64,000 nucleotides of DNA from Chryseobacterium defluvii (GTDB lineage: Bacteria; Bacteroidota; Bacteroidia; Flavobacteriales; Weeksellaceae). Shown piece by piece: positions 7,100 to 39,138 of this stretch. Both the position numbers and the translations under genes were made by a program. The DNA lies in the NCBI RefSeq assembly GCF_003634775.1, contig NZ_RBXB01000004.1, positions 62,001 through 126,000 on the forward strand, given 5' to 3'. Below the pieces are notes generated by a model. That model did no database searches and was not told where the DNA came from. It saw only the letters and a program-made list of their open reading frames with translations. The stretch's first letter is position 1; every line of letters begins with the position of its first letter.

Positions 7100-8224
7100 T
7101 TACACGTCTAAAGAATAAGTTCTTCTTCTTTTGTGATTTACAGGATTATAGTCCTGCCACAACAGCTGAATATTTTTGTTTTCTTCCAGCTCAGGATTGG
7201 TTTCTAAATATTTCACGCCTTTCTTCCTGAAAATTTTCCAGATTTCTTTAAAAATAATGGAAGTAACCCCCCTTCTCTGATATTCGGGGTGAATGCCGAT
7301 TAAATAGAAATTGGCGCGGTCGTTTTTCTTTCCGGCCTGTAAAAAATGCCACCAACCGAAAGGAAGCAGTTTTCCTTTTGATTTTTGCAATGCTTTGGAA
7401 TAAGAAGGCATTGTGATAGCAAACGAGATCAGATTGTTATTGGCATCGGCTATGCAAACGATAAAATCTTTATCAATAAGTTTAAAATACTTTTCCTTGT
7501 ATGTTTTACGCTGTTCCTCTGAAATAGGAGTGTAGGTTGAAAGGTGTTTATACGTTTCATCCAGTAAATCAAACATAGGATCTACATACTGTATGATTTC
7601 TTCTTTTGAATTGAATTTTAGAACCTTAAGTTGGTACTTTTGGGAGATCAGCTCATTGAATTTATGGATTTTTTCCGGTAAAACCTCAGGAAACATCAAT
7701 TCAAATTCCACCCATTCTTTTTCCTTGATAAGTCCTAAATTTTCAAGGTGTCTTGGGTAATATTCGTGATTATAGATCCCGATCATGGTTGCCAATTTGT
7801 CAAAACCTAATGTCAGCATTCCGGCTTTATCCAGATTGGTAAAGCCCATGGGGCCTTCGATTTTATGAATATCTTTCTCCTTGGCGTAATCTATGGCTTT
7901 TTGAATCAGGGCTTGCGAAACTTCAGGGTCATCAATAAAGTCGATCCATCCGAACCGTACTTTTCGGATACCTAATTCTTTTTCTTCCTTATGGTTGATA
8001 ATGACAGCAATTCTTCCTACCAGTTTTTGATCTTTAAAAGCGAGATATTGTTTTGATTCAGAGTATTGTAATGCGGGGTTTTCACTGGGACTCCATATGT
8101 TGATTTCATCATTGATAAAGGATGGAACATAATAAGGATTCCCTTTATAAAGATCCATTGGAAACTTCACAAATTGTTTTAATTCGTCACGTGTTTTTAC
8201 TTCAACTACTGAAACTTTCGACAT
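7100..8224 (-). CDS. GNAT-fold N-acetyltransferase-like protein
   Basis: 374 aa. The C-terminal half has the GNAT acetyl-CoA motif area (NFYLIGIHPEYQRRGVTSIIFKE, where the Q/RxxG/A loop is QRRGVT). The N-terminal half looks like a second, divergent GNAT-type domain (YLAFKDQKLVGRIAVIIN). Such ~370 aa double-domain proteins are common and uncharacterised in Flavobacteriia. The substrate cannot be read from the sequence. A -7 box TATATTTG is on the minus strand at 8250-8257. Confidence 0.75.
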   Translation of the reverse strand: MSKVSVVEVKTRDELKQFVKFPMDLYKGNPYYVPSFINDEINIWSPSENPALQYSESKQYLAFKDQKLVGRIAVIINHKEEKELGIRKVRFGWIDFIDDPEVSQALIQKAIDYAKEKDIHKIEGPMGFTNLDKAGMLTLGFDKLATMIGIYNHEYYPRHLENLGLIKEKEWVEFELMFPEVLPEKIHKFNELISQKYQLKVLKFNSKEEIIQYVDPMFDLLDETYKHLSTYTPISEEQRKTYKEKYFKLIDKDFIVCIADANNNLISFAITMPSYSKALQKSKGKLLPFGWWHFLQAGKKNDRANFYLIGIHPEYQRRGVTSIIFKEIWKIFRKKGVKYLETNPELEENKNIQLLWQDYNPVNHKRRRTYSLDV

Positions 8225-22760: not shown

Positions 22761-22833
22761 GGTTTCTCTAGCTTATTTGGTAAAGCGTCGGTTTGTGGCA
22801 CCGAAGAACAGGGTTCGATTCCCGGAGATACCC
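22761..22833 (+). tRNA. tRNA-His (GTG)
   Basis: Acceptor GGTTTCT / AGATACC with one T-T mismatch. D stem GCTT/AAGC. Anticodon stem TCGGT / ACCGA with loop TTGTGGC. T arm has one A-G mismatch. The discriminator is C, as expected for His, but the base before position 1 is T, not the usual G-1. Slightly degenerate, so function is uncertain. Confidence 0.75.
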
Positions 22834-22842
22834 CAATTATAA

Positions 22843-22916
22843 AATCCCATAGCTCAATTGGTTGGAGCGTCGACCTGATACGTCGAAGGTTGAAGGTTCG
22901 AATCCTTCTGGGATTA
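22843..22916 (+). tRNA. tRNA-Ile (GAT)
   Basis: Perfect acceptor AATCCCA / TGGGATT, D stem GCTC/GAGC, anticodon stem TCGAC / GTCGA with loop CTGATAC (GAT), T arm GAAGG / CCTTC with TTCGAAT loop. Discriminator A, and an encoded CCA at 22917-22919, unlike most of the array. Confidence 0.92.
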
Positions 22917-23002
22917 CCAATAAAAGTGAATGATCAATGGTTGATTTTTAAAAAATTGACAAGTAAAGCGGATTGACAGTTGACCATTTACATTTTAAAA
23001 AC

Positions 23003-23076
23003 AATCTCATAGCTCAAATGGTTAGAGCACCGGTCTTTTAAACCGGGGAGTAGAGGTTCGAATCCTCTCGGGATCA
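23003..23076 (+). tRNA. tRNA-Lys (TTT)
   Basis: Anticodon stem CCGGT / ACCGG, loop CTTTTAA (TTT). D stem GCTC/GAGC, T arm AGAGG / CCTCT. The acceptor AATCTCA / CGGGATC has two A-C mismatches (positions 1-72 and 7-66), so the gene is somewhat degenerate. No encoded CCA. Confidence 0.8.
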
Positions 23077-23082
23077 CAAAAA

Positions 23083-23167
23083 GGAGAGCAGGCAAATATT
23101 GGTTTGTTGCGGCTTACTGCTAATGAGTTCTACAACAGTAGTGAAGGTTCGATTCCTTTGCTCTCCG
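23083..23167 (+). tRNA. tRNA-Ser (GCT)
   Basis: 85 nt class II tRNA. Perfect acceptor GGAGAGC / GCTCTCC, anticodon stem GCTTA / TGAGT with loop CTGCTAA (GCT), a variable arm CTAC-AACA-GTAG, and T arm GAAGG / CCTTT. Discriminator G, as in Ser tRNAs. Confidence 0.85.
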
Positions 23168-23173
23168 CAAAAA

Positions 23174-23244
23174 GGTCTATTGAGGTAATGGCAACCTGCC
23201 CGATTGTCTCTCGGGCACCGCGAGTTCGATTCTCGCATAGACCG
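23174..23244 (+). tRNA. tRNA-Asp (GTC)
   Basis: 71 nt. Perfect acceptor GGTCTAT / ATAGACC, D stem AGGT/ACCT, anticodon stem CCCGA / TCGGG with loop TTGTCTC (GTC), T arm GCGAG / CTCGC. Discriminator G, as in Asp tRNAs. Confidence 0.9.
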
Positions 23245-23248
23245 CAAA

Positions 23249-23306
23249 GGTTCACGGAAAATTTCGGCTCCGACTGTCTCTCGGAAAAGAAATTGGAACT
23301 GAACCT
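23249..23306 (+). tRNA. Truncated tRNA-Asp-like element
   Basis: 58 nt. The ends GGTTCA / TGAACC pair. The centre is an Asp-type anticodon arm TCCGA-CTGTCTC-TCGGA (GTC), close to that of the preceding tRNA-Asp. No T arm or TTCGA loop can be found. Either a relic or an armless tRNA mimic. Confidence 0.4.
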
Positions 23307-23312
23307 CAAAAA

Positions 23313-23384
23313 CTGGAAAGATAACGGTGGTTGTTTACCCGCCTTGGACGCGGGAGGTCATAGGTTCGAATCCTATTTTCCAGA
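23313..23384 (+). tRNA. tRNA-Pro (TGG)
   Basis: Perfect acceptor CTGGAAA / TTTCCAG, anticodon stem CCCGC / GCGGG with loop CTTGGAC (TGG), T arm ATAGG / CCTAT. The D arm is reduced (TAAC-GGTG-GTTG, 4-nt loop). Discriminator A. Confidence 0.85.
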
Positions 23385-23392
23385 CAAAATTT

Positions 23393-23465
23393 GCTCCATT
23401 CGTCTAATGGTTCAGGACGCCTGCCTTTCGAGCAGTAAATGAGGGTTCGATTCCCTTATGGAGTA
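23393..23465 (+). tRNA. tRNA-Glu (TTC)
   Basis: Acceptor GCTCCAT / ATGGAGT, D stem GTCT/GGAC, anticodon arm CCTGC-CTTTCGA-GCAGT (one C-T mismatch), anticodon TTC, T arm GAGGG / CCCTT. Confidence 0.87.
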
Positions 23466-23470
23466 CAAAA

Positions 23471-23544
23471 GATTTCGTAGCTCAAATGGCTAGAGTATCG
23501 GTTTCATACGCCGCAGGTTGAAGGTTCGAATCCTTCCGAAATTA
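23471..23544 (+). tRNA. tRNA-Met-like (CAT)
   Basis: Acceptor GATTTCG / CGAAATT, D stem GCTC/GAGT, anticodon arm TCGGT-TTCATAC-GCCGC (one T-C mismatch), anticodon CAT, T arm GAAGG / CCTTC. Elongator Met or Ile2 identity is undecided. Confidence 0.82.
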
Positions 23545-23548
23545 CAAT

Positions 23549-23620
23549 GATTTTGTAGCTCAATGGCAGAGCAACGGCCTGTTAAGCCGAAGGTTGAAAG
23601 TTCGAATCTTTCCGAAATCG
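23549..23620 (+). tRNA. tRNA-Asn (GTT)
   Basis: Acceptor GATTTTG / CGAAATC, D stem GCTC/GAGC with a short loop, anticodon loop CTGTTAA (GTT) on a CGGC/GCCG stem, T arm GAAAG / CTTTC. Discriminator G, as in Asn tRNAs. Confidence 0.87.
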
Positions 23621-23648
23621 CAAATAACTGAATAGTAATTGTTTCAAA

Positions 23649-23722
23649 GGAGAAAGTGAAAGTTTGTCAAGCGCAGAAGCTCTTTACATCAAAAATACAA
23701 ACAGACAAGCTTTTCTTGCTCC
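23649..23722 (+). ncRNA. Conserved long stem-loop, copy 1
   Basis: Arms GGAG...AAAGTTTGTC and GACAAGCTTTT...CTCC form an ~18 bp imperfect stem. The loop opens with the constant AAGCGCAGAAGCTCTTTA. It ends 9 bp before the tRNA-Cys-like gene. It shares GTTTGTC-RRGCGCAGAAG-N-TCTT with copies at 23882 and 24198. Confidence 0.65.
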
Positions 23723-23730
23723 AAAATGAT

Positions 23731-23816
23731 GGTTCGCCGAAGTGGAAGAGTCGGGACGGTCTGCAAAACCGTTGCAAAGCTGAGTGGGTTTTGAAATGTG
23801 AAACATTCGCGAATTC
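23731..23816 (+). tRNA. tRNA-Cys-like (GCA), abnormal T arm
   Basis: Acceptor GGTTCGC / GCGAATT (two G-T pairs), D stem CCGA/TCGG, anticodon stem ACGGT / ACCGT with loop CTGCAAA (GCA). The variable and T-arm part lacks TTCGA. Instead a GTTT / GAAAC helix with loop TGAAATGT can form. The discriminator would be C where Cys tRNAs normally have T. Probably degenerate or repurposed. Confidence 0.55.
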
Positions 23817-23881
23817 AAATAAAAAACAATGGTTATGAGCAATCCCATAACCATCTCTAGTAACAAAATGAGATAAGTTCA

Positions 23882-23958
23882 GAAGAAAAATTAAAGTTTG
23901 TCGGGCGCAGAAGTTCTTATATCAAACAAAAAATACAGACAGGCTTTAAATTTTCTTC
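23882..23958 (+). ncRNA. Conserved long stem-loop, copy 2
   Basis: The best-paired copy. GAAGAAAAATTAAAGTTTGTC (23882-23902) faces its reverse complement at 23938-23958 with a single true mismatch plus G-T pairs, about 21 bp. The loop opens with GGGCGCAGAAGTTCTT. The tRNA-Tyr gene starts 46 bp downstream. Confidence 0.72.
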
Positions 23959-24003
23959 AAAGTAAATCAGAGAATTACTTATTACTTATTATTCATTTAA
24001 AAA

Positions 24004-24087
24004 GGAAGTGCGCCGGAGCTGGAGAGCCGGGGCAGACTGTAAATCTGCTGCTTTATTGCTGAGTAGGTTCGAATCCTACCACTTCCA
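24004..24087 (+). tRNA. tRNA-Tyr (GTA)
   Basis: Class II. Perfect acceptor GGAAGTG / CACTTCC, D stem CCGG/CCGG, anticodon stem GCAGA / TCTGC with loop CTGTAAA (GTA), long variable region, T arm GTAGG / CCTAC. Discriminator A with encoded CCA at 24088-24090. Confidence 0.92.
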
Positions 24088-24092
24088 CCATG

Positions 24093-24163
24093 CAACTGAT
24101 AATGTAATGGCAGCATGCAGGAAATATACTCTTGTTGTTCAGGTTCGACTCCTGGTCAGTTGA
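24093..24163 (+). tRNA. tRNA-like, anticodon uncertain (TAT?)
   Basis: Perfect acceptor CAACTGA / TCAGTTG, D stem ATGT/GCAT, T arm with TTCGACT loop. The anticodon arm is best drawn as CAGGA-AATATAC-TCTTG, which gives TAT but puts A at the normally invariant U33. Decoding function is therefore doubtful. Confidence 0.6.
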
Positions 24164-24197
24164 TTTTTTAATAACACAAGTCAAAATAAAATAAAAA

Positions 24198-24276
24198 GGA
24201 GAAGGGATGGTTTGTCAAGCGCAGAAGATCTTTACAAATATTACTAACAGGCATATTTTTATAAACAGGCTTTCTC
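24198..24276 (+). ncRNA. Conserved long stem-loop, copy 3
   Basis: GGAGAAGG...GGTTTGTC with the constant AAGCGCAGAAGATCTTTA in the loop. The distal arm ACAGGCTTTCTC pairs less perfectly than in copies 1 and 2. A second ACAGGC occurs inside the loop at 24246. Tied to the family by the 18-nt conserved core. Confidence 0.55.
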
Positions 24277-24364
24277 TAACCTTATCATGAATAATGAGTA
24301 ATAGGCAATACGCAAGTATTTCAATTTTAATATTACTAATCTATTACTCATTACTCAAAAAAAT

Positions 24365-24438
24365 GCAGGAATGGCGGAACTGGCAGACGCACTTGATTTA
24401 GGCTCAAGGTATTGGGGGTTCAAATCCCTCTTCCTGTA
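24365..24438 (+). tRNA. tRNA-Leu (TAG) with short variable region
   Basis: Acceptor GCAGGAA / TTCCTGT, Leu-type D arm GCGG-AACTGGCAG-ACGC, anticodon stem CTTGA / TCAAG with loop TTTAGGC (TAG), T arm GGGGG / CCCTC. Only five bases (GTATT) separate the anticodon and T stems, whereas bacterial Leu tRNAs have a long variable arm. Confidence 0.85.
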
Positions 24439-24444
24439 CAAAAC

Positions 24445-24518
24445 ACCTCTCTATTCCAACTGGCAGAGAAAACGGTCTTAAACTCCGTATAGTCCCGGTT
24501 CGAATCCGGGGAGAGGTA
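24445..24518 (+). tRNA. tRNA-Leu-like (TAA) with short variable region
   Basis: Perfect acceptor ACCTCTC / GAGAGGT, anticodon arm ACGGT-CTTAAAC-TCCGT (one T-T mismatch), anticodon TAA, T arm CCCGG / CCGGG. The D arm is weak. The variable region is class I size. Confidence 0.75.
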
Positions 24519-24524
24519 CAAAAA

Positions 24525-24597
24525 GGATCAGTGGTGTACAAGGTGTGCATGTTTGTCTGAAAAACAAAAGGGAGCCGTTCGATTCGTTTCTGATCCA
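24525..24597 (+). tRNA. tRNA-Gln-like (CTG), degenerate
   Basis: Perfect acceptor GGATCAG / CTGATCC. Anticodon arm TGTTT-GTCTGAA-AAACA (CTG). The D stem is only TGTA/TGCA, and the T stem AGCCG / CGTTT is mismatched although the TTCGATT loop is kept. Confidence 0.6.
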
Positions 24598-24607
24598 CAA
24601 AAAATAA

Positions 24608-24680
24608 TGATTCGTAGTGTAATGGGTCAGCACACAAGACTTTGACTCTTGTAGTTTAGGTTCGAGTCCTAATGAATCAA
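24608..24680 (+). tRNA. tRNA-Gln (TTG)
   Basis: Acceptor TGATTCG / TGAATCA, with T at position 1 as common in Gln tRNAs. D stem GTGT/GCAC, anticodon stem CAAGA / TCTTG with loop CTTTGAC (TTG), T arm TTAGG / CCTAA. Confidence 0.87.
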
Positions 24681-24687
24681 CAAAAAT

Positions 24688-24758
24688 ACTCTGATAGTAT
24701 AAAGGTAGCACGTCAGTCTCCAAAACTGATGGTATAGGTTCGAATCCTGTTCGGAGTG
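24688..24758 (+). tRNA. tRNA-Trp (CCA)
   Basis: Acceptor ACTCTGA / TCGGAGT, anticodon stem TCAGT / ACTGA with loop CTCCAAA (CCA), T arm ATAGG / CCTGT. Discriminator G as in bacterial Trp tRNAs. The D stem has one mismatch. Last tRNA of the array. Confidence 0.85.
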
Positions 24759-24844
24759 CAAAAAGAGAAATAACAATTTACTATTCAATTATCAGCGATC
24801 ATTTATCAATTATAAAAAATATGTAGAATTTAAAATGTAAAACA

Positions 24845-27212: not shown

Positions 27213-27370
27213 GATCTTACTTTTAATACAAAGCTAGAAAACGGATTATCAAAAATGAAAAAACTCCCATTTCTTTAATGAAAATAAAAGATAGACACTT
27301 TATATCTCATCTTAACTCCCTTTTTAACAGGAAATTACTAAAAAATTATTTTTTTTTTAATTAAAATTTT

Positions 27371-27408
27371 ACTACGCAAATACACTGCGTAATTCTATTT
27401 TTACTTTG
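27371..27408 (+). promoter_or_regulatory. Operator and -7 box of the TROVE gene
   Basis: Inverted repeat TACGCA-N7-TGCGTA inside ACTACGCAAATACACTGCGT, followed by a -7 box TTACTTTG at 27401-27408. The same inverted repeat at the same distance (38 bp from the A of ACTACG to the last G of the box) precedes the Y RNA array at 29202-29239. Confidence 0.7.
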
Positions 27409-27433: not shown

Positions 27434-27473
27434 GATCTTCCGTTTGTTTAACATTAAAAACAGTAACTCATGA
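27432..27473 (+). CDS. 13-aa uORF coupled to TROVE
   Basis: Peptide MIFRLFNIKNSNS. Its TGA overlaps the TROVE start as ATGA, the usual layout of translational coupling. Its ATG is partly inside the SD-like sequence, leaving almost no spacing, so initiation there is doubtful. Listed because of the exact overlap. Confidence 0.3.
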   Translation: MIFRLFNIKNSNS

Positions 27474-28987
27474 AATTTAATTTTTTAAGAAAAGAGAAAA
27501 ATGTAGTGGCGAACTACGAAGGTGCAAAAGCGTTTACAATGACGCCTGCTGAAGAATTGTATAGTGCTGTTGTTACAACAGGATTATCAAACACAACTTA
27601 TGAAAAAGGAAATGACAGACTGCAAAGAATCCAGTCTCTGATTAAGAAAAATGATCCTGAATTCGTAGCCAAGCTGGCTGTATACGCAAGAAACGATATG
27701 TATCTGCGTTCCATTCCTTTGGTTTTGGCAACCGAATTGGCAAAACAAACTTCAGGTACCGACCTGGTAAGCAAAACTATTGATGGTGTTGTTAAAAGAG
27801 CCGATGAAATTACGGAATTATTAGCTTACTATCAATTGGCGAACGAAAGAACGGAAACCAAAAAGTTGAATAAGCTTTCAAAGCAGATTCAGAAAGGTCT
27901 GGTAAAGTCATTCAATAAGTTTGATGAATACCAGTTTGCCAAATACAACAGAAAAGCTGAAGTTACGCTGAAAGACGCTTTGTTTCTGGTACACCCGAAA
28001 GCAAAAGATGAAGATCAGCAAGCTATTTTCAATAAGATCGTAAATGATACGTTGGATACCCCTTATACATGGGAAGTTGAACTTTCAGTTCTGGGTCAGA
28101 CAAAATTTGCTGATGAAGCAGAAAGAAAATCAGCTTTCAAAAACAAATGGGAAGAACTGATTTTTAGTAATAAGCTTGGTTATATGGCTACTTTACGTAA
28201 CCTTAGAAATATTCTGGAAGCGGAAGTTTCTTCTGAAGCCATGGAAAAAGTATGCAGATACTTATCGGATGAAAAAGCGGTTAAAAGCTCAAAACAATTG
28301 CCATTCAGATTTTTGGCTGCGTATAGAGAATTGAAAACAATCCATTCAAAATACCTGTCATCAGTATTAGAAGCATTGGAAAATGCGGTAATGGTGAGTG
28401 CTCAGAACATTAAAGGTTTCGGTTTCGATACTTCGGTGGTAATTGCAGCTGACGTATCCGGTTCTATGCAACAGCCGGTTTCTGCGAAAAGTAAAGTTTT
28501 ACTATACGATATCGGTTTGTTGATGTCGATGATCTTGCAGTCACAATGTAAAAATGTGGTTACAGGTATCTTTGGTGACACCTGGAAGAGAGTTCCGATG
28601 CCTAAAAATGGTATTTTAAGAAACGTCAATGAATTCTATAAGCGTGAAGGTGAAGTAGGGTATTCCACCAACGGTTATCTGGTAATCGAAGATCTGATCA
28701 GAAAAAGAGAAAAAGCTGATAAAATTATGATCTTCACCGATACCCAACTGTGGAACAGCAGCGGAACCCGTAATTCTTTTGAAGATTCATGGAACCGTTA
28801 CAAAGCCATTGCGCCCAACGCGAAATTGTATATTTTTGATTTGGCAGGTTATGGCAGACAACCTTTAGATATCAAACAAAATGATGTATATCTGATTGCT
28901 GGCTGGTCCGACAAAATCTTCGATGTACTGAATGCTTTGGAAGACAGAAAATCTGCCGTAGCAATGATTAAAAAAGTAGTGCTGTAA
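27470..28987 (+). CDS. TROVE-VWA RNA-binding protein (Ro60/Rsr orthologue)
   Basis: 505 aa. The N-terminal ~300 residues are the TROVE HEAT-repeat ring (LQRIQSLIKKNDPEFVAKLAVYARNDMYLRSIPLVLATELAK near 60-100). The C-terminal von Willebrand A domain has the MIDAS motif DVSGSMQQP near residue 328 and a later FTDTQLWN. Ro proteins bind Y RNAs and misfolded structured RNAs and, with exonucleases, act in RNA quality control. Two Y-like RNAs lie immediately downstream on the same transcript and seven more after a second copy of its operator. Likely named rsr, but not certain. Confidence 0.95.
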   Translation: MKFNFLRKEKNVVANYEGAKAFTMTPAEELYSAVVTTGLSNTTYEKGNDRLQRIQSLIKKNDPEFVAKLAVYARNDMYLRSIPLVLATELAKQTSGTDLVSKTIDGVVKRADEITELLAYYQLANERTETKKLNKLSKQIQKGLVKSFNKFDEYQFAKYNRKAEVTLKDALFLVHPKAKDEDQQAIFNKIVNDTLDTPYTWEVELSVLGQTKFADEAERKSAFKNKWEELIFSNKLGYMATLRNLRNILEAEVSSEAMEKVCRYLSDEKAVKSSKQLPFRFLAAYRELKTIHSKYLSSVLEALENAVMVSAQNIKGFGFDTSVVIAADVSGSMQQPVSAKSKVLLYDIGLLMSMILQSQCKNVVTGIFGDTWKRVPMPKNGILRNVNEFYKREGEVGYSTNGYLVIEDLIRKREKADKIMIFTDTQLWNSSGTRNSFEDSWNRYKAIAPNAKLYIFDLAGYGRQPLDIKQNDVYLIAGWSDKIFDVLNALEDRKSAVAMIKKVVL

Positions 28988-29038: not shown

Positions 29039-29110
29039 AACCGATGCCGTAAGAAAAGAAATCCTTCGACTTCGAATTGAAAATGAGTCTTTTCGCTGTA
29101 TCGCTCGGTT
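29039..29110 (+). ncRNA. Y RNA-like module 0a
   Basis: Outer stem AACCGA / TCGGTT, then constant TGCCGTAAG, inner stem AAAAGA / TCTTTT, and the loop element CCTTCG. It is a minimal module with no large insert. It starts 52 bp after the TROVE stop codon on the same strand. Confidence 0.65.
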
Positions 29111-29116
29111 TATATA

Positions 29117-29195
29117 ACCAATGTCGTAAATAAGAGTTCCATCGTCAAACTTTCACTTTGAAAAAACTCTTATTGACTGTTACTTGGTTTTTTTT
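29117..29195 (+). ncRNA. Y RNA-like module 0b with terminator
   Basis: Outer stem ACCAA / TTGGT, constant TGTCGTA, perfect 10 bp inner stem AATAAGAGTT / AACTCTTATT, and loop element CCATCG. The outer stem runs into TTTTTTTT (29188-29195), so the module doubles as the terminator of the TROVE transcript. Confidence 0.72.
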
Positions 29196-29201
29196 AATAT
29201 T

Positions 29202-29239
29202 ACTACGTAAAAACAGTGCGTAGTTACAATATAAATTTG
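29202..29239 (+). promoter_or_regulatory. Operator and promoter of the Y RNA array
   Basis: Inverted repeat CTACGTA-N7-TGCGTAG (one internal mismatch) followed by an exact -7 box TAAATTTG at 29232-29239. Base-for-base the same spacing as the TROVE operator at 27371-27408. Start of transcription is expected near 29246. Confidence 0.75.
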
Positions 29240-29272
29240 TAATCAGAAAAACACTAACCATTATATATAAAT

Positions 29273-29414
29273 ATCAAGTGTCGTTTTAGAATCATACTTC
29301 GATTGGTTAATCATTGGGTCGCAGGTTCGATTCCTGCCTTTTCCCTCGAAAAGGAGAAGTAGCTCAGCAGGTAGAGCAAATGGAAAGATAAGATTCTATG
29401 ATTATTACCTTGAT
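29273..29414 (+). ncRNA. Y RNA-like module 1 with permuted tRNA mimic
   Basis: Outer stem ATCAAG / CTTGAT, constant TGTCGT, inner stem AGAATC / GATTCT, ACTTCG. The insert is a tRNA in permuted order: T arm GCAGG-TTCGATT-CCTGC, acceptor 3' strand CTTTTCC, an 8-nt linker, acceptor 5' strand GGAGAAG, TA, D arm GCTC-AGCAGGTA-GAGC. No anticodon arm. The Ro-type stem takes its place. Confidence 0.82.
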
Positions 29415-29423
29415 TTAAAAAAT

Positions 29424-29545
29424 AAAGAGTGCCGTAGAGAAGGCTTACTTCGATAGGAAATTAGATGTAAATCTAAAAAATGTGTATTTTCCCGAATAAC
29501 AGTAAGGAATGGATACATGTCTGTCTTTTCGCCTTTTGCCTCTTT
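29424..29545 (+). ncRNA. Y RNA-like module 2
   Basis: Outer stem AAAGAG / CTCTTT, constant TGCCGTAGA, inner stem AAGGC / GCCTT, ACTTCG. The insert has a perfect TTAGAT-GTAA-ATCTAA hairpin and an ATGTGTAT / ATACAT pairing. No T-arm or D-arm signature is found, so what it mimics, if anything, is unknown. Confidence 0.7.
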
Positions 29546-29565
29546 TCAAAGAAACTATCAATACA

Positions 29566-29694
29566 ATCAGGTGCCGTAGTACAGAAATACTTCGTTCCAG
29601 ACCGGCAATACAGGTTCGATTCCTGTTTGTTGAAAAACAATCGTCTAAATGGAAGGACTCCGGAGAAAAGGTTCTGTGTGAAAATTGCCCTGAT
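29566..29694 (+). ncRNA. Y RNA-like module 3 with permuted tRNA mimic
   Basis: Outer stem ATCAGG / CCTGAT, constant TGCCGTAGT, inner stem ACAGAA / TTCTGT, ACTTCG. Insert: CCGG clamp, T arm ACAGG-TTCGATT-CCTGT, short acceptor TTGTT / AACAA closed by a small loop, then a Glu-type D arm GTCT-AAATGGAA-GGAC and the second CCGG. Confidence 0.78.
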
Positions 29695-29700
29695 GTTGAT

Positions 29701-29804
29701 AAAAGAGTGCCGTAGAGAAAACTTACTTCGGTTCATTTGGTTCGACTCCAGAAATAAACCTGAAAAGGTTTGTACAATTAGTTTTCTCGTTTTTTGCCTC
29801 TTTA
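29701..29804 (+). ncRNA. Y RNA-like module 4 with T-arm minihelix
   Basis: Outer stem AAAGAG / CTCTTT, constant TGCCGTAGA, perfect 9 bp inner stem GAGAAAACT / AGTTTTCTC, ACTTCG. Insert: T arm TTTGG-TTCGACT-CCAGA stacked on an acceptor-like AAACC / GGTTT helix. No D arm. Confidence 0.77.
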
Positions 29805-29819
29805 ATTTTAAAAGCTTTA

Positions 29820-30045
29820 GCAAATAAGTGTCGTAGAGAAAAGTTCCTTCGTACTAACGGTCCTAAGGTAGCGTAATTCGGGCGACCGAACGAGTGAAGT
29901 TGGGTTGAAAGCCAACCGGGTAAAAGTTTTCATAAGAAAATGCAAGTCTCTTGAAGATGTAGAATTACCGGTTCACTGCCCATTATCGGTAAGAACGACG
30001 CTTTTGAAAAAAAAGCAAACTTTTTTCGCCTGTTTCCTTATTTGC
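29820..30045 (+). ncRNA. Y RNA-like module 5 with 23S rRNA-like insert
   Basis: Perfect 9 bp outer stem GCAAATAAG / CTTATTTGC, constant TGTCGTAGA, inner stem GAGAAAAGTT / AACTTTTTTC, CCTTCG. The ~150 nt insert starts with TAACGGTCCTAAGGTAGCG (29855-29873), identical to the universally conserved 23S rRNA helix 69-71 segment. Later it has TGAAGATG...TTACC, resembling the domain IV/V junction in the same order. It also holds hairpins GTTGG/CCAAC and TTACCG/CGGTAA. Confidence 0.8.
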
Positions 30046-30055
30046 ATTAAAAAAT

Positions 30056-30196
30056 AAACAAGTGCCGTAGAATAGTGTTACTTCGCTCATCACGACGGGG
30101 TCGCGGGTTCGAGTCCCGCCTCTTCCACACTAAAACAGGAAGAGTAGCTCAGATGGTTAGAGCACGACATTACGCTTTTTGATAATTGCCTTGTTT
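30056..30196 (+). ncRNA. Y RNA-like module 6 with permuted tRNA mimic
   Basis: Outer stem AAACAAG / CTTGTTT, constant TGCCGTAGA, inner stem AGTGT / ACGCT, ACTTCG. Insert is the clearest permuted tRNA: T arm GCGGG-TTCGAGT-CCCGC, acceptor 3' strand CTCTTCC, linker ACACTAAAACA, acceptor 5' strand GGAAGAG (perfect 7 bp), TA, D arm GCTC-AGATGGTTA-GAGC. Confidence 0.85.
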
Positions 30197-30202
30197 AAAA
30201 AA

Positions 30203-30349
30203 TTAAAAGTGTCGTAAAGAAAAGTTTCATCGTTCGTCACTATTGGGGAGGAATAACGAAGTCGGTAACGCCGGCAAGGTTAACCGGTTCGATTCCGGCG
30301 TTGACAGCGCCCCGCTTAAAGATCTTTTCTTGCCTATTACCTTTTTTAA
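30203..30349 (+). ncRNA. Y RNA-like module 7
   Basis: Outer stem TTAAAAG / CTTTTTTAA, constant TGTCGTAAA, perfect 8 bp inner stem AAGAAAAG / CTTTTCTT, TCATCG. The insert forms GGGG / CCCC and an 8 bp AACGCCGG / CCGGCGTT helix with an inner AACCGGTTCGATT loop. It contains GAAGTCG, TAAC, AAGG and TAACCG in the order seen near the 16S 3' end, a weaker resemblance. Confidence 0.72.
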
Positions 30350-30383
30350 AACTCTGATAAAATTATTTTATCAGAGTTTTTTT
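30348..30383 (+). terminator. Terminator of the Y RNA array
   Basis: 15 bp perfect stem AAAACTCTGATAAAA / TTTTATCAGAGTTTT, 3-nt loop, T run. Confidence 0.95.
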
Positions 30384-36602: not shown

Positions 36603-37427
36603 ATGAATAGGAGATACAGCTTACACCACATTCATTCGGCGGATGAATTCACTTTTTCGCCTGCGGAATACAGCTATTTCAAATATGGCGATAAGTCGTA
36701 TGCGGAAAAATTTGCAAAAGAACTGTTTGACGGATTTATTTCTGAAAATGAAGACCTTTTACATACAAATAAAGAAATTGTAGTGTTGCCAAGTCCTTAT
36801 ATGGCGATTCCTACAGCTTCCAATTTTTTATGTTTCTATTTTAAAAAACAACTGGATTTCTATTTATTCCAAAAAGGAAAAAAAACCAGTATCTTATCAA
36901 AAATCAATCGTAATCATACTTATATTACAGATTATGGGAATCTTAATTTTGAGGATCGTAAAAATCTGATTGCCAATGACACCTATTATATTGATAAGGA
37001 TTTTTTAAGAGGAAAACTTTGTATTTTTATAGACGATATCAAAATTACAGGCAGCCATGAATTTACCGTTCATAAAATTCTTAACGAATATGATGTAAAA
37101 GCAGATTTTGTGTTTCTGTATTATGCTGAGCTTATGAATTTTGATATTGATCCTAAAATTGAGAATTTTTTCAATTACTATGCAGTGAAAAATATTGATC
37201 ATATTGCTGAAGTAATGGTAAGACCCAGTTTTCAGTTTAATACAAGGATCGTAAAATATATTTTAGGGTTAGAATCAAGTAAATTTGAATATCTTTCGTC
37301 TAAAGTAAAAAAGGAGCAGATGGATCATTTATTGGAATTGGCGATCAGTAATAATTATCATTTAATAAAAGAATACGAAAATAATATAAATACATTAACA
37401 CAAACAGAACTATACTATGGCTATTAA
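36603..37427 (+). CDS. Phosphoribosyltransferase-like protein of the Ter cluster
   Basis: 274 aa. The PRPP-binding loop LCIFIDDIKITGSHEFTV near 139-156 (two Asp followed by TG) marks a PRTase fold. The N-terminal part VLPSPYMAIPTASNFLCFYF fits the family. It overlaps the next gene, terD-like, by 11 bp. Comparative genomics of Ter systems predicts such PRTases act with the HAD enzyme in synthesis of a modified nucleotide. That remains inference here. Confidence 0.8.
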   Translation: MNRRYSLHHIHSADEFTFSPAEYSYFKYGDKSYAEKFAKELFDGFISENEDLLHTNKEIVVLPSPYMAIPTASNFLCFYFKKQLDFYLFQKGKKTSILSKINRNHTYITDYGNLNFEDRKNLIANDTYYIDKDFLRGKLCIFIDDIKITGSHEFTVHKILNEYDVKADFVFLYYAELMNFDIDPKIENFFNYYAVKNIDHIAEVMVRPSFQFNTRIVKYILGLESSKFEYLSSKVKKEQMDHLLELAISNNYHLIKEYENNINTLTQTELYYGY

Positions 37428-37971
37428 TTTACAGAAAGGACAAAGAGAAAATATAAATGCACCTAAATTTATAGTAGGTTTAGGATGGGATATCAATAAT
37501 ACTTCTACTGGAACTGCGTTCGATTTGGATGCATCCCTGTTTTTATTGGGGGAAAATAAAAAGTTGGTTTCGGATAGTCATTTTGTTTTTTATAATAATC
37601 TTGAGTCGCCGGATAAGGCTGTGATTCATTCAGGAGATAACTTAACAGGTGACGGAGCAGGAGATGACGAGCAAATTAAGATTGATCTTACTAAAATTGA
37701 TTCTGCAATAAAGGAAATCACCATTGTGGTGACAATTCATGATGCGGATGCCAGAAAACAAAATTTCGGACAGGTAAGAAACTCTTTCATCAGGATTTTT
37801 AATCCGGATACCAATGAAGAACTTTTAAAATATGAATTGGATGAGGATTTCTCTATCGAAACAGCTGTAGAATTTGGAAGAATCTACAACAGAAACGGGG
37901 AATGGAAATTTGAAGCTGTAGGAAGCGGACAAAGAGAAGGACTAGAGAAATTTGTAGAAATCTATCAATAA
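37417..37971 (+). CDS. TerD-family protein (1)
   Basis: 184 aa. Begins MAINLQKGQRENI, with Ca2+-site phrases FDLDASLFLLG, HSGDNLTGDGAGDDEQIKID and IHDADARKQNFGQV, and the terminal FGRIYNRNGEWKFEAVG. TerD proteins bind calcium and form the core of tellurite/stress resistance complexes at the inner membrane. A paralogue is at 40149. Confidence 0.93.
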   Translation: MAINLQKGQRENINAPKFIVGLGWDINNTSTGTAFDLDASLFLLGENKKLVSDSHFVFYNNLESPDKAVIHSGDNLTGDGAGDDEQIKIDLTKIDSAIKEITIVVTIHDADARKQNFGQVRNSFIRIFNPDTNEELLKYELDEDFSIETAVEFGRIYNRNGEWKFEAVGSGQREGLEKFVEIYQ

Positions 37972-37977
37972 TTAATC

Positions 37978-39138
37978 ATGGATAATCAACCCAATCAACC
38001 CATTGATCCACTTGGATCAATTGAACCTCTTAAAACATTTGAACCCGCTCAGCCAAGCCAGCCTGCTCAAGGTGCTGTTCCGGTTCTTGTAGACAGAGAC
38101 GGAAATGTAAACCTTACCCAGATCCAGGAAGAAGAGCGTCAGCGATATGAGGCTCTTGCTAATTCTATTGATGAAACCAATCCGGGATCCATTGTGAATT
38201 TTGGTTCGGATCTGCAGAAAACACTGGCTAACCAGAGCGACAGCTTCTTAGGAAATGTAAGACGATCAAACTCGGGAGAAGTTGGAGAACTGATCAATAA
38301 TTTATTGGTAGAGCTCAACTATGTTGATGTTGATGAATTGAATAACACCAATAAAGTAAAGGGATTTCTGAGCAGATTGCCATTCATGAAAAAAGTAATG
38401 ACACAGGTGGAAAATCTTTTTGCGAAATATGATAAGATCGTAAATAATATTGATCAGATTTCACATAAAGTAAACGCCGGGATTATTACTTCTTCTAAAG
38501 ATAATGCAGTTTTACAGACGATTTTCGACAGCAATATCAATTCCATCAAACAAATAGAAGATCTTGTGATTGCAGGAAATCTAAGAATGGAAAAAGCCGG
38601 GCAGGAACTTGCCGAAATGGAAGCCAATGCACAGAATTATGCCGATTATCAGATTGCTGATAAAAGGGATTTCATAGCAAGATTAGACAGAAGAATGGCA
38701 GATCTTAAAGTAGTTCGTCTGATCATGATGCAGTCTCTTCCGCAAATCAGGCTGGTGCAAAATAATAATGTTTCCATTGCTGAAAAAGCCCAAACGATTC
38801 TTACCACAACATTACCGGTTTGGAAAAATCAGCTTTCATTGGCAGTAGCCATGTACAGGCAACAGCAGAATATTGAAATTCAACAGAAAGTATCTTCCAC
38901 AACAGAAGAGATTTTAAGAAAGAATGCGGAACGTCTGGGACAGAACTCAAGAAATGTGGCAAAAGCTAATGAACAAACCATTGTATCTGCCGAAACATTG
39001 AGAGAAACAACCACTATGCTGATCAATACGTTGAATGAAGTGAAACAAATCCAGAAACAAGGTGCAGAAAATAGAAGAAAACTGGATCAGGACCTGCAAA
39101 CACTGGAACACGAATTAAAAGCAAATATCAGAGGTTAA
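37978..39138 (+). CDS. TelA/KlaA-family toxic anion resistance protein
   Basis: 386 aa, largely alpha-helical. A Pro/Gln-rich N-terminal tail (to ~35) is followed by a long coiled-coil body with family phrases SFLGNVRRSNSGEVGELINNLL and LRLVQNNN-like IRLVQNNNVSIAEKAQTILTTTLPVWKNQL. TelA is a cytoplasmic partner of TerD in tellurite and envelope-stress resistance. It starts 6 bp after the TerD gene. Confidence 0.92.
   Translation: MDNQPNQPIDPLGSIEPLKTFEPAQPSQPAQGAVPVLVDRDGNVNLTQIQEEERQRYEALANSIDETNPGSIVNFGSDLQKTLANQSDSFLGNVRRSNSGEVGELINNLLVELNYVDVDELNNTNKVKGFLSRLPFMKKVMTQVENLFAKYDKIVNNIDQISHKVNAGIITSSKDNAVLQTIFDSNINSIKQIEDLVIAGNLRMEKAGQELAEMEANAQNYADYQIADKRDFIARLDRRMADLKVVRLIMMQSLPQIRLVQNNNVSIAEKAQTILTTTLPVWKNQLSLAVAMYRQQQNIEIQQKVSSTTEEILRKNAERLGQNSRNVAKANEQTIVSAETLRETTTMLINTLNEVKQIQKQGAENRRKLDQDLQTLEHELKANIRG

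Follow-up and report, generated by a model that had tools for sequence, protein, structure and literature searches.

A Ro60 locus of Chryseobacterium defluvii with an ordered array of putative Y RNAs that carry different, substrate-like heads

We analysed a 64 kb stretch of the Chryseobacterium defluvii genome (contig NZ_RBXB01000004.1; "the window" below), in which a Ro60/Rsr gene is followed by an array of nine RNA modules, M1 to M9. We consider it likely that the gene and the array make up a co-regulated Ro60 ribonucleoprotein (RNP) locus, with an ordered set of Y RNAs that share a constant stem and carry different heads resembling RNA substrates. The core of the modules, their heads, their order and an operator come from sequence, covariation and comparison; from these we infer Ro binding, transcription and tethering. 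The comparison uses 81 loci, 80 from relatives plus that of the window. An earlier reading of the letters alone (the sequence-only reading) had proposed a Y RNA array here; it does not mention that the heads resemble substrates, that the order is conserved or that an operator is shared.

The Ro60/Rsr gene (27470..28987, + strand) encodes a protein of 505 aa with TROVE and vWA domains, in which a MIDAS-like DVSGSM is seen by eye. Its product matches Pfam TROVE (PF05731, E 3.2e-30) and vWA_Ro60 (PF25045, E 3.2e-7), and among PDB structures the TROVE protein 9l5y (E 4.2e-28), Ro60 1yvp (E 3.6e-6) and RO60 9nen (E 2e-4). After a gap of 51 bases come the nine modules, on the same strand, at 29039-30346; the start of the array is where the sequence-only reading had put it, and its end lies near 30346, not at 30349. 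All modules follow one plan: outer stem, TGYCGT, 5' half of the inner stem, C[TA]TCG, an insert, and the 3' half of the inner stem. The 3' arm of the outer stem is directly preceded by RC in 8/9 window modules and by TC in M7. The TGYCGT motifs of M1 to M9 start at 29045, 29122, 29279, 29430, 29572, 29708, 29829, 30063 and 30210, and the spacing between modules from M3 to M9 is 6-20 nt. A strict scan, which requires the C before the 3' arm, finds exactly nine modules in the 64 kb and 0 on the other strand. Looser scans of the window give two extra matches (34050, 39837) or three unclassified ones, which we take as chance. An intrinsic-terminator-like hairpin, reported by a terminator scan, closes the array (30348..30380, + strand). 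At gathering threshold, Rfam reports only tRNAs in the window.

The constant stem

The significance of pairing was judged by dinucleotide shuffles, mismatched partners and slid alignments. Within the window, the outer stem has 6/6 Watson-Crick pairs in 8/9 modules and 5/6 in M9, and swapping outer arms between modules (72 combinations) lowers the mean to 3.4/6 pairs. The outer stems of M4 and M6 have the same letters. Nine modules, each with its own matching outer stem, are what the sequence-only reading had described, and its claim that the stems covary is borne out by the relatives as well. Up to 4.2 kb downstream of Ro, the 81 loci contain 512 sites with TG[CT]CGT and C[TA]TCG. An outer-stem score of at least 6 is reached at 88.5% of these sites (453), compared with 23.8% of dinucleotide shuffles of the downstream part. 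The 453 stems were chosen by complementarity alone, so two inner positions serve as an independent check. The first is the base immediately 5' of the 3' arm, a C in 423/453 stems and in 120/608 cases in the shuffles. The second is the Y of TGYCG, which with its partner forms C-G in 215 stems, T-A in 186, T-G in 28 and other combinations in 24; that is a standard pair in 429/453 stems, against 240/608 in shuffles. For the inner helix, 77.7% of modules score at least 7, compared with 13.8% of mismatched partners, with a P value that is not independent because the modules are related. The covarying stem core is real; in it the 5' and 3' ends of the module pair, and a bulge and the covarying G-C and Y-R pairs follow the outer stem. 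A pairing of CGUAG with CUUCG within this core was set aside, as the CATCG variants show no compensating change.

Heads, order and occurrence of the modules

We grouped 448 modules from the loci into classes, which are Louvain communities on BLAST scores and not curated families; 33/448 are left in groups of one or two. Class 0 was filtered by length before alignment (54 distinct of 58, with 51 in the profile set), and alignment A1 consists of 40 evenly drawn members plus the window copy. All nine window modules are on the + strand.

M3 (29273..29414) and M8 (30055..30197) have heads that we read as circularly permuted tRNAs. For this comparison the tRNAs of the genome were each written twice in a row, so that matches may cross the tRNA ends. 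Against the doubled tRNA-Gly(gcc), the window copy of M3 alone gives E 1.3e-7 and its class profile E 2.2e-13; for M8 the values are E 4.2e-7 and E 2.1e-10. Both matches run through the T-arm and the 3' acceptor strand, across the tRNA ends, and on into the 5' acceptor strand and the D-arm. Because the matches cross the tRNA ends, the M3 and M8 heads are, by their sequence, circularly permuted tRNA mimics with no anticodon loop. In the consensus folds of the two classes the T-arm has 5 bp, the acceptor 6-7 bp with a loop closing it, and the D-arm 4 bp, and in M3 both-side changes are found in 13/19 predicted pairs.

M5 (29566..29694) is in class 4, found in 43 loci, which holds another kind of permuted tRNA mimic. 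The class fold is permuted-tRNA-like, with both-side changes in 13/16 pairs. The best match of the class profile is to a tRNA of an extra array in an island, not to a standard tRNA: tRNA-Trp(cca) of the island gives E 2.7e-10, and its tRNA-Ile(tat) E 2.1e-7. The window copy matches class 4 at E 3e-16 (with a profile that includes this copy) and class 12 at E 4.3e-11. M6 (29702..29803; class 2, 50 loci) has a T-arm-like hairpin and a second hairpin and no D-arm. Folded as a single sequence, the second hairpin is acceptor-like; the class consensus fold contains a 4-bp T-arm only, and the class profile matches tRNA weakly (E 0.05). We name the M6 head a T-arm/acceptor minihelix only tentatively, because the class fold and the tRNA matches speak for the T-arm alone, and weakly. 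In a Flavobacterium relative (L068, 7605-7673), ARAGORN calls part of a module tRNA-Glu, which is likely a mis-annotated tRNA-like head.

The extra tRNA array lies upstream of Ro60, at 22761-24759 of the window. Its 16 tRNA genes (His, Ile, Lys, Ser, Asp, Pro, Glu, Met, Asn, Tyr, Ile(tat), Leu, Leu, Phe, Gln and Trp) make up a second, divergent set and stand beside genes for RNase H-like, cyclic-phosphate-receiver and metallophosphoesterase proteins. Runs of 4-11 tRNA calls, mostly upstream of Ro, are also present in the flanking sequences of 7/80 relatives (L011, L012, L014, L040, L047, L062 and L063). Such sets are possibly spare tRNAs for stress that damages tRNA.

The large module M7 (29820..30045) includes a segment of 23S rRNA. 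Aligned with the 23S rRNA of the same genome, 24/25 nt are identical at 29855-29879, and the class profile matches the rRNA operon over 31 nt (E 1e-6). In one relative (L004) the match to 23S rRNA is exact over 33 nt. We take this segment to be from the H69-H71 region. The rest of the M7 head is well conserved, and no match to it was found. A weak tmRNA match across M7 and M8 (17.3 bits) was rejected, since it rests on the T-arm of M8.

M9 (30204..30346) has a conserved fold of its own, present in 58 loci: two stacked helices and a T-loop-like hairpin. Both-side changes are found in 7/13 predicted pairs, and 99.2% of cells are paired, compared with at most 46.9% in slid alignments. On four of five measures 0/500 shuffles score as high; the pair-types measure is not above the shuffles (296/500). 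By eye, the alignment suggests a pseudoknot of GUCA/UGAC and GGGG/CCCC that covaries (GUCU/AGAC, GUUA/UAAC). A covariance model of M9 (R1), searched against the genome at E up to 1, matches M9 itself and nothing else. M4 (29424..29545; class 9, 14 loci) has a head of no identified resemblance: the class gives no tRNA or rRNA match, and in the genome its covariance model (R2) finds only M4 below E 1, plus one chance-level match at E 2.8. A GUGYA/URCAY stem is seen by eye. The two remaining modules, M1 (29039..29110; class 7, 24 loci) and M2 (29116..29189), are short and Y-like, with heads that fold as short hairpins when taken as single sequences. The outer stem of M2 runs into a series of T, a possible terminator of the Ro transcript that the terminator scan did not report.

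The modules occur in a nearly fixed order. M8 precedes M9 in 45/45 loci that have both, M3 precedes M8 in 38/38 and M9 in 36/36, M7 precedes M8 in 13/13, M6 precedes M8 in 41/42, and class 4 precedes M8 in 33/33. Exceptions are few and mainly concern class 4 relative to M1, M2 and M3; for example, all of class 4 precedes M3 in 25 loci, while in 1 it follows M3 and in 1 the two are mixed. Window M2 is unclassified in this comparison because a nearer, false 3' arm was taken as its end, and window M5 is by position (between M4 and M6) class 12, yet it clustered with class 4. Given recurrent classes in near-fixed order, the RNA genes of the array look to have been inherited as an ordered set.

Applied to 80 loci (1.04 Mb), the strict scan gives 473 modules on the + strand downstream of Ro; it gives 1 within or upstream of Ro and 9 on the opposite strand. 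Array size was counted in those 63 loci of the Chryseobacterium group that extend at least 4.5 kb beyond Ro, where the median is 7 modules per locus, the maximum 11 (L006) and the minimum 2, and in 13 Flavobacterium loci, which have 3-6 modules each. Two loci (L029, L035) have zero modules, and both sequences stop soon after Ro at a contig end. The sequence-only reading had called nine modules exceptional; nine is usual for the genus, though many beside the one or two of most reported bacteria.

M9 and Ro60 occur together. TROVE is present in 123 of 173 genomes from the genus, and a match to the M9 model in 112: both in 109, M9 only in 3, TROVE only in 14 and neither in 47 (Fisher P 5e-26, from trials that are not independent, as the loci are syntenic and the genomes related). 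One of the three genomes with M9 only has a weak match (E 7.1e-5), and the other two are assemblies 73% and 87% complete. In 296 genomes drawn from the order, a sample that includes some of the 173, TROVE is found in 25 (3/90 genera) and M9 in 18 (2 genera), all within the 25. Because M9 lies near Ro, this co-occurrence shows that the two are inherited and lost together; it does not show that each is selected independently. Ro60 relatives (<60% identity) are also found in 97 phage records, and 10/15 among those listed exceed 300 kb; a relaxed scan of seven viral Ro loci found no module at threshold.

A shared operator and the RNA repair genes

The promoter of the Ro gene has a palindrome, TACTACG...TGCGTA, at 27370..27391 (+ strand), which ends 78 bases before the Ro ATG and is followed by TACTTTG at 27402-27408. 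We call it the operator; its sequence is TACTACGYAAAWACASTGCGTA. A second copy lies between M2 and M3 (29201..29222, + strand), with TAAATTTG at 29232-29239, a sequence that resembles the Bacteroidetes -7 element. With up to 3 mismatches the whole genome has three operator sites in total, and a reversed-pattern control gives 0. The third site, on contig C2, has 2 mismatches; it spans from 49 to 27 bases before the likely ATG of an RtcB gene. The RtcB and Ro promoters both carry TTACTTTGCATCA, at the same distance from the palindrome. Downstream of the third site the operon encodes RtcB (PF01139), a 584-aa protein with no Pfam match (X; L153 4698-6449, minus strand) and RlaP (PF10127, the "RNA repair pathway DNA polymerase beta family"; E 4.6e-70). 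The RtcB genes of the genome, two in all, were both located by genome search on other contigs, and no RtcB-like ORF is seen in the ORF lists of the window up to 40000. The second RtcB gene (L154 3571-6297) adjoins a release-factor-like gene with an RF-1 domain and has no operator match. In the Flavobacterium locus L068, an RtcB gene (PF01139, E 1.5e-83) is separated from Ro by three modules.

The operator is conserved among relatives. In 81/81 loci the 300 bp before the Ro match contain an operator site scoring at least 14/19, and in 79/81 a site lies at 81-102 bp (in L075 the Ro match begins at residue 79, and the distance is counted from there). Of 300-bp stretches taken at random from these loci, 5.1% score at least 14, true copies included. 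Downstream of Ro there are 95 sites scoring at least 16, in 65/81 loci; elsewhere in the 1.1 Mb such sites number 0 on the minus strand and 23 on the plus strand. Among the 95 downstream sites, 31 precede a TGYCGT by 54-57 bases and 24 by 66-90. Another 20/95, in Chryseobacterium loci, precede the next TGYCGT by 343-348 bases, and this fixed distance may point to another transcribed element in between. In two relatives (L001, L015) an operator site precedes an RNase_T-family exonuclease. Five loci have an operator site far upstream of Ro (2.8-3.2 kb), at position 2881 of L002, 2777 of L007, 3207 of L009, 3190 of L017 and 2959 of L020, in each case followed by TTACTTTGCAT. The L002 site may belong to another non-coding transcript, because the next + strand ORF of at least 80 aa starts about 830 bases later.

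Ro, the putative Y RNAs and the repair enzymes thus form, by sequence, one predicted regulon. Given the shared operator, the Ro gene, the array and the RtcB-X-RlaP operon would probably be switched on together by RNA damage.

Two features in the surroundings stand apart from these subjects. At 36603-39138 of the window, genes for PRTase ComF-like, TerD and TelA proteins (by Pfam) stand in a row and make up a Ter-type stress cluster, some 6 kb away from the array. L001 has an Rfam Flavo-1 RNA (57.4 bits; gathering score 42) between its Ro gene and its array, at 7598-7673 on the minus strand.

Y RNA identity, alternative explanations and meaning

The modules are best read as an array of Y RNAs, presumably bound by Ro60. 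Rfam YrlA (RF02553) matches M8 at 30096-30166 (39.3 bits, E 8.6e-7) and M3 at 29289-29407 (37.9 bits, E 2.2e-6). We call M3 and M8 YrlA-like, not members of the family, because their scores are below the gathering cut-off. A tRNA-like head with T-arm, closed acceptor and D-arm is found in M3, M8 and the M5 class and in part in M6; it is not found in M4 or M7, M9 has a T-loop-like hairpin only, and M1 and M2 are too short. The proposal of a Y RNA array is thus upheld by the adjacent Ro60 gene, the covarying core, the YrlA-like M3 and M8 and the co-occurrence of M9 with TROVE, and what falls away is the exceptional number.

Parts of this arrangement are known already, namely tRNA-like Y RNAs and operons of Ro, Y RNAs and RtcB. 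YrlA, of Salmonella and others, is likewise near the Ro60 gene and has a terminal stem and a head like those of M3 and M8, according to the excerpt of PMC8394870; the arrays described here differ in having up to 11 ordered modules, heads that are not tRNA-like (M4, M7, M9) and a core of GYCGU. The same excerpt gives YrlA as a substrate of DusA and TruB and as a tether for PNPase. In the Y RNA-Rsr-PNPase complex of D. radiodurans (RYPER), too, the RNA joins a Ro-binding stem to an effector (PMC8058203, PMC8394870); the excerpts of these two sources mention no array, and PNPase tethering here would be by analogy only. The Salmonella rsr-yrlBA-rtcBA operon brings Ro, Y RNAs and RtcB under common regulation, in response to tRNA damage (PMC7790460). 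Its order resembles that of Ro, modules and RtcB in Flavobacterium L068, whereas in C. defluvii the repair operon is unlinked and joined by the shared palindromic operator only. Titles and abstract openings in the literature revealed no Y RNA array of Chryseobacterium or Flavobacterium, no 23S-derived head and no shared operator; an earlier description is possible. Chen et al. 2014 (RNA) reportedly surveyed more than 250 species.

Several observations weigh against the Y RNA reading or against parts of it. The YrlA matches of M3 and M8 are below the gathering score of 69, which none of the nine modules passes, and the other seven have no YrlA match at E up to 5. The core is conserved, as the sequence-only reading had it, with letters that are one base off the Ro-binding consensus given there: the motif is G[CT]CGT[A/T], with a T at the fifth base where GNCGAAGN0-1G has A. 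The Y-R pair is kept in 8/9 window modules and is T:T in M7. In minimum-energy folds of single sequences, the drawn core is absent in M3 and partial in M7. Among the heads, window M5 alone matches tRNA weakly (E 0.074, on the T-arm side), and window M6 alone has no tRNA match. M7 was rejected as a complete copy of 23S rRNA, with only about 31 nt matching, and M9 and M4 were rejected as copies of a cellular RNA, the genome searches with R1 and R2 having given only the modules, apart from the chance-level R2 match. As to occurrence, 14/123 TROVE genomes have no match to the M9 model, and seven further TROVE loci with short flanks include three with two modules each and four with none.

In the mechanism that we propose, Ro60 would bind the constant stem of each module, and Ro and the RNAs of the array would be made when RNA is damaged, through the operator common to RtcB-X-RlaP. 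In the permuted tRNA heads of M3 and M8, a loop joins the acceptor strands and the Y stem takes the place of the anticodon loop. Each head may bring a different enzyme (nuclease, modification or repair) to the RNA bound by Ro, as the Y RNA of other bacteria does with PNPase. Candidate enzymes would be those that recognise the tRNA elbow, the acceptor or ribosomal RNA.

The main rival is that the modules are decoys, whose heads mimic the RNAs that hostile enzymes attack (toxins, or RNases of phages or plasmids) and soak up these enzymes or inhibit them competitively, while RtcB and RlaP mend the damage and Ro only stabilises. This is a serious contender that we nevertheless think rather unlikely. 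The heads do mimic different targets, tRNA in M3, M8 and the M5 class and a 23S segment in M7; the operator is common to the repair operon; and the extra tRNA set is near the locus in the window and in 7/80 relatives, all as decoys would have it. The permuted tRNA heads, however, are without the anticodon loop, the commonest cut site, and the order and letters of the modules are well conserved between species, where arms-race decoys should turn over fast. The absence of anticodon loops and the slow change of the heads argue against decoy as the sole role. In the excerpt of PMC7790460 the authors raise the idea of a competitive inhibitor for YrlA; in Salmonella, YrlA fragments were not seen when tRNAs were cut.

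Alternatively, M3 to M9 may be one unprocessed transcript on which up to seven Ro rings sit side by side, the whole array being the working unit. One operator before M3, one terminator-like hairpin after M9, the gaps of 6-20 nt and the conserved order fit such a scaffold. We give it little credence, since several operators downstream of Ro at other loci (95 sites in 65 loci, 55 of them at most 90 bases before TGYCGT) mean that shorter units are probably transcribed too. That the modules are relics without Y RNA function, left by decaying tRNA genes and by fragments of rRNA within a mobile island, would suit the divergent tRNA array upstream and the resemblance to tRNA and 23S rRNA, but it is contradicted already by covariation, with compensatory changes in the stems, and also by the 87% mean column identity of the M7 head in 14 loci, the near-fixed order and the conserved operator, so that we regard it as scarcely credible.

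Beyond the reading of the locus as a co-regulated Ro60 RNP with ordered Y RNAs, there is a broader one that we advance tentatively, at somewhat short of an even chance: a genus-wide, ordered library of Ro60-bound substrate mimics. One ring would be supplied with many interchangeable heads and in this way programmed to meet several RNA targets, or several partner enzymes, simultaneously, under the operator common to RtcB and RlaP. If true, the library would comprise permuted tRNAs of two kinds, a 23S segment, at least two folds that follow no known model and perhaps a tRNA minihelix; one of its Y RNAs would be a mimic of ribosomal RNA. What bacterial Ro60 and its Y RNAs do has yet to be settled. 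The array is a natural series of one stem with many heads, in which the role of the head is directly testable in one strain because each head names a candidate partner. The operator ties Ro and the putative Y RNAs to RtcB and RlaP, and its palindrome is a marker by which the regulator and the inducing damage may be found.

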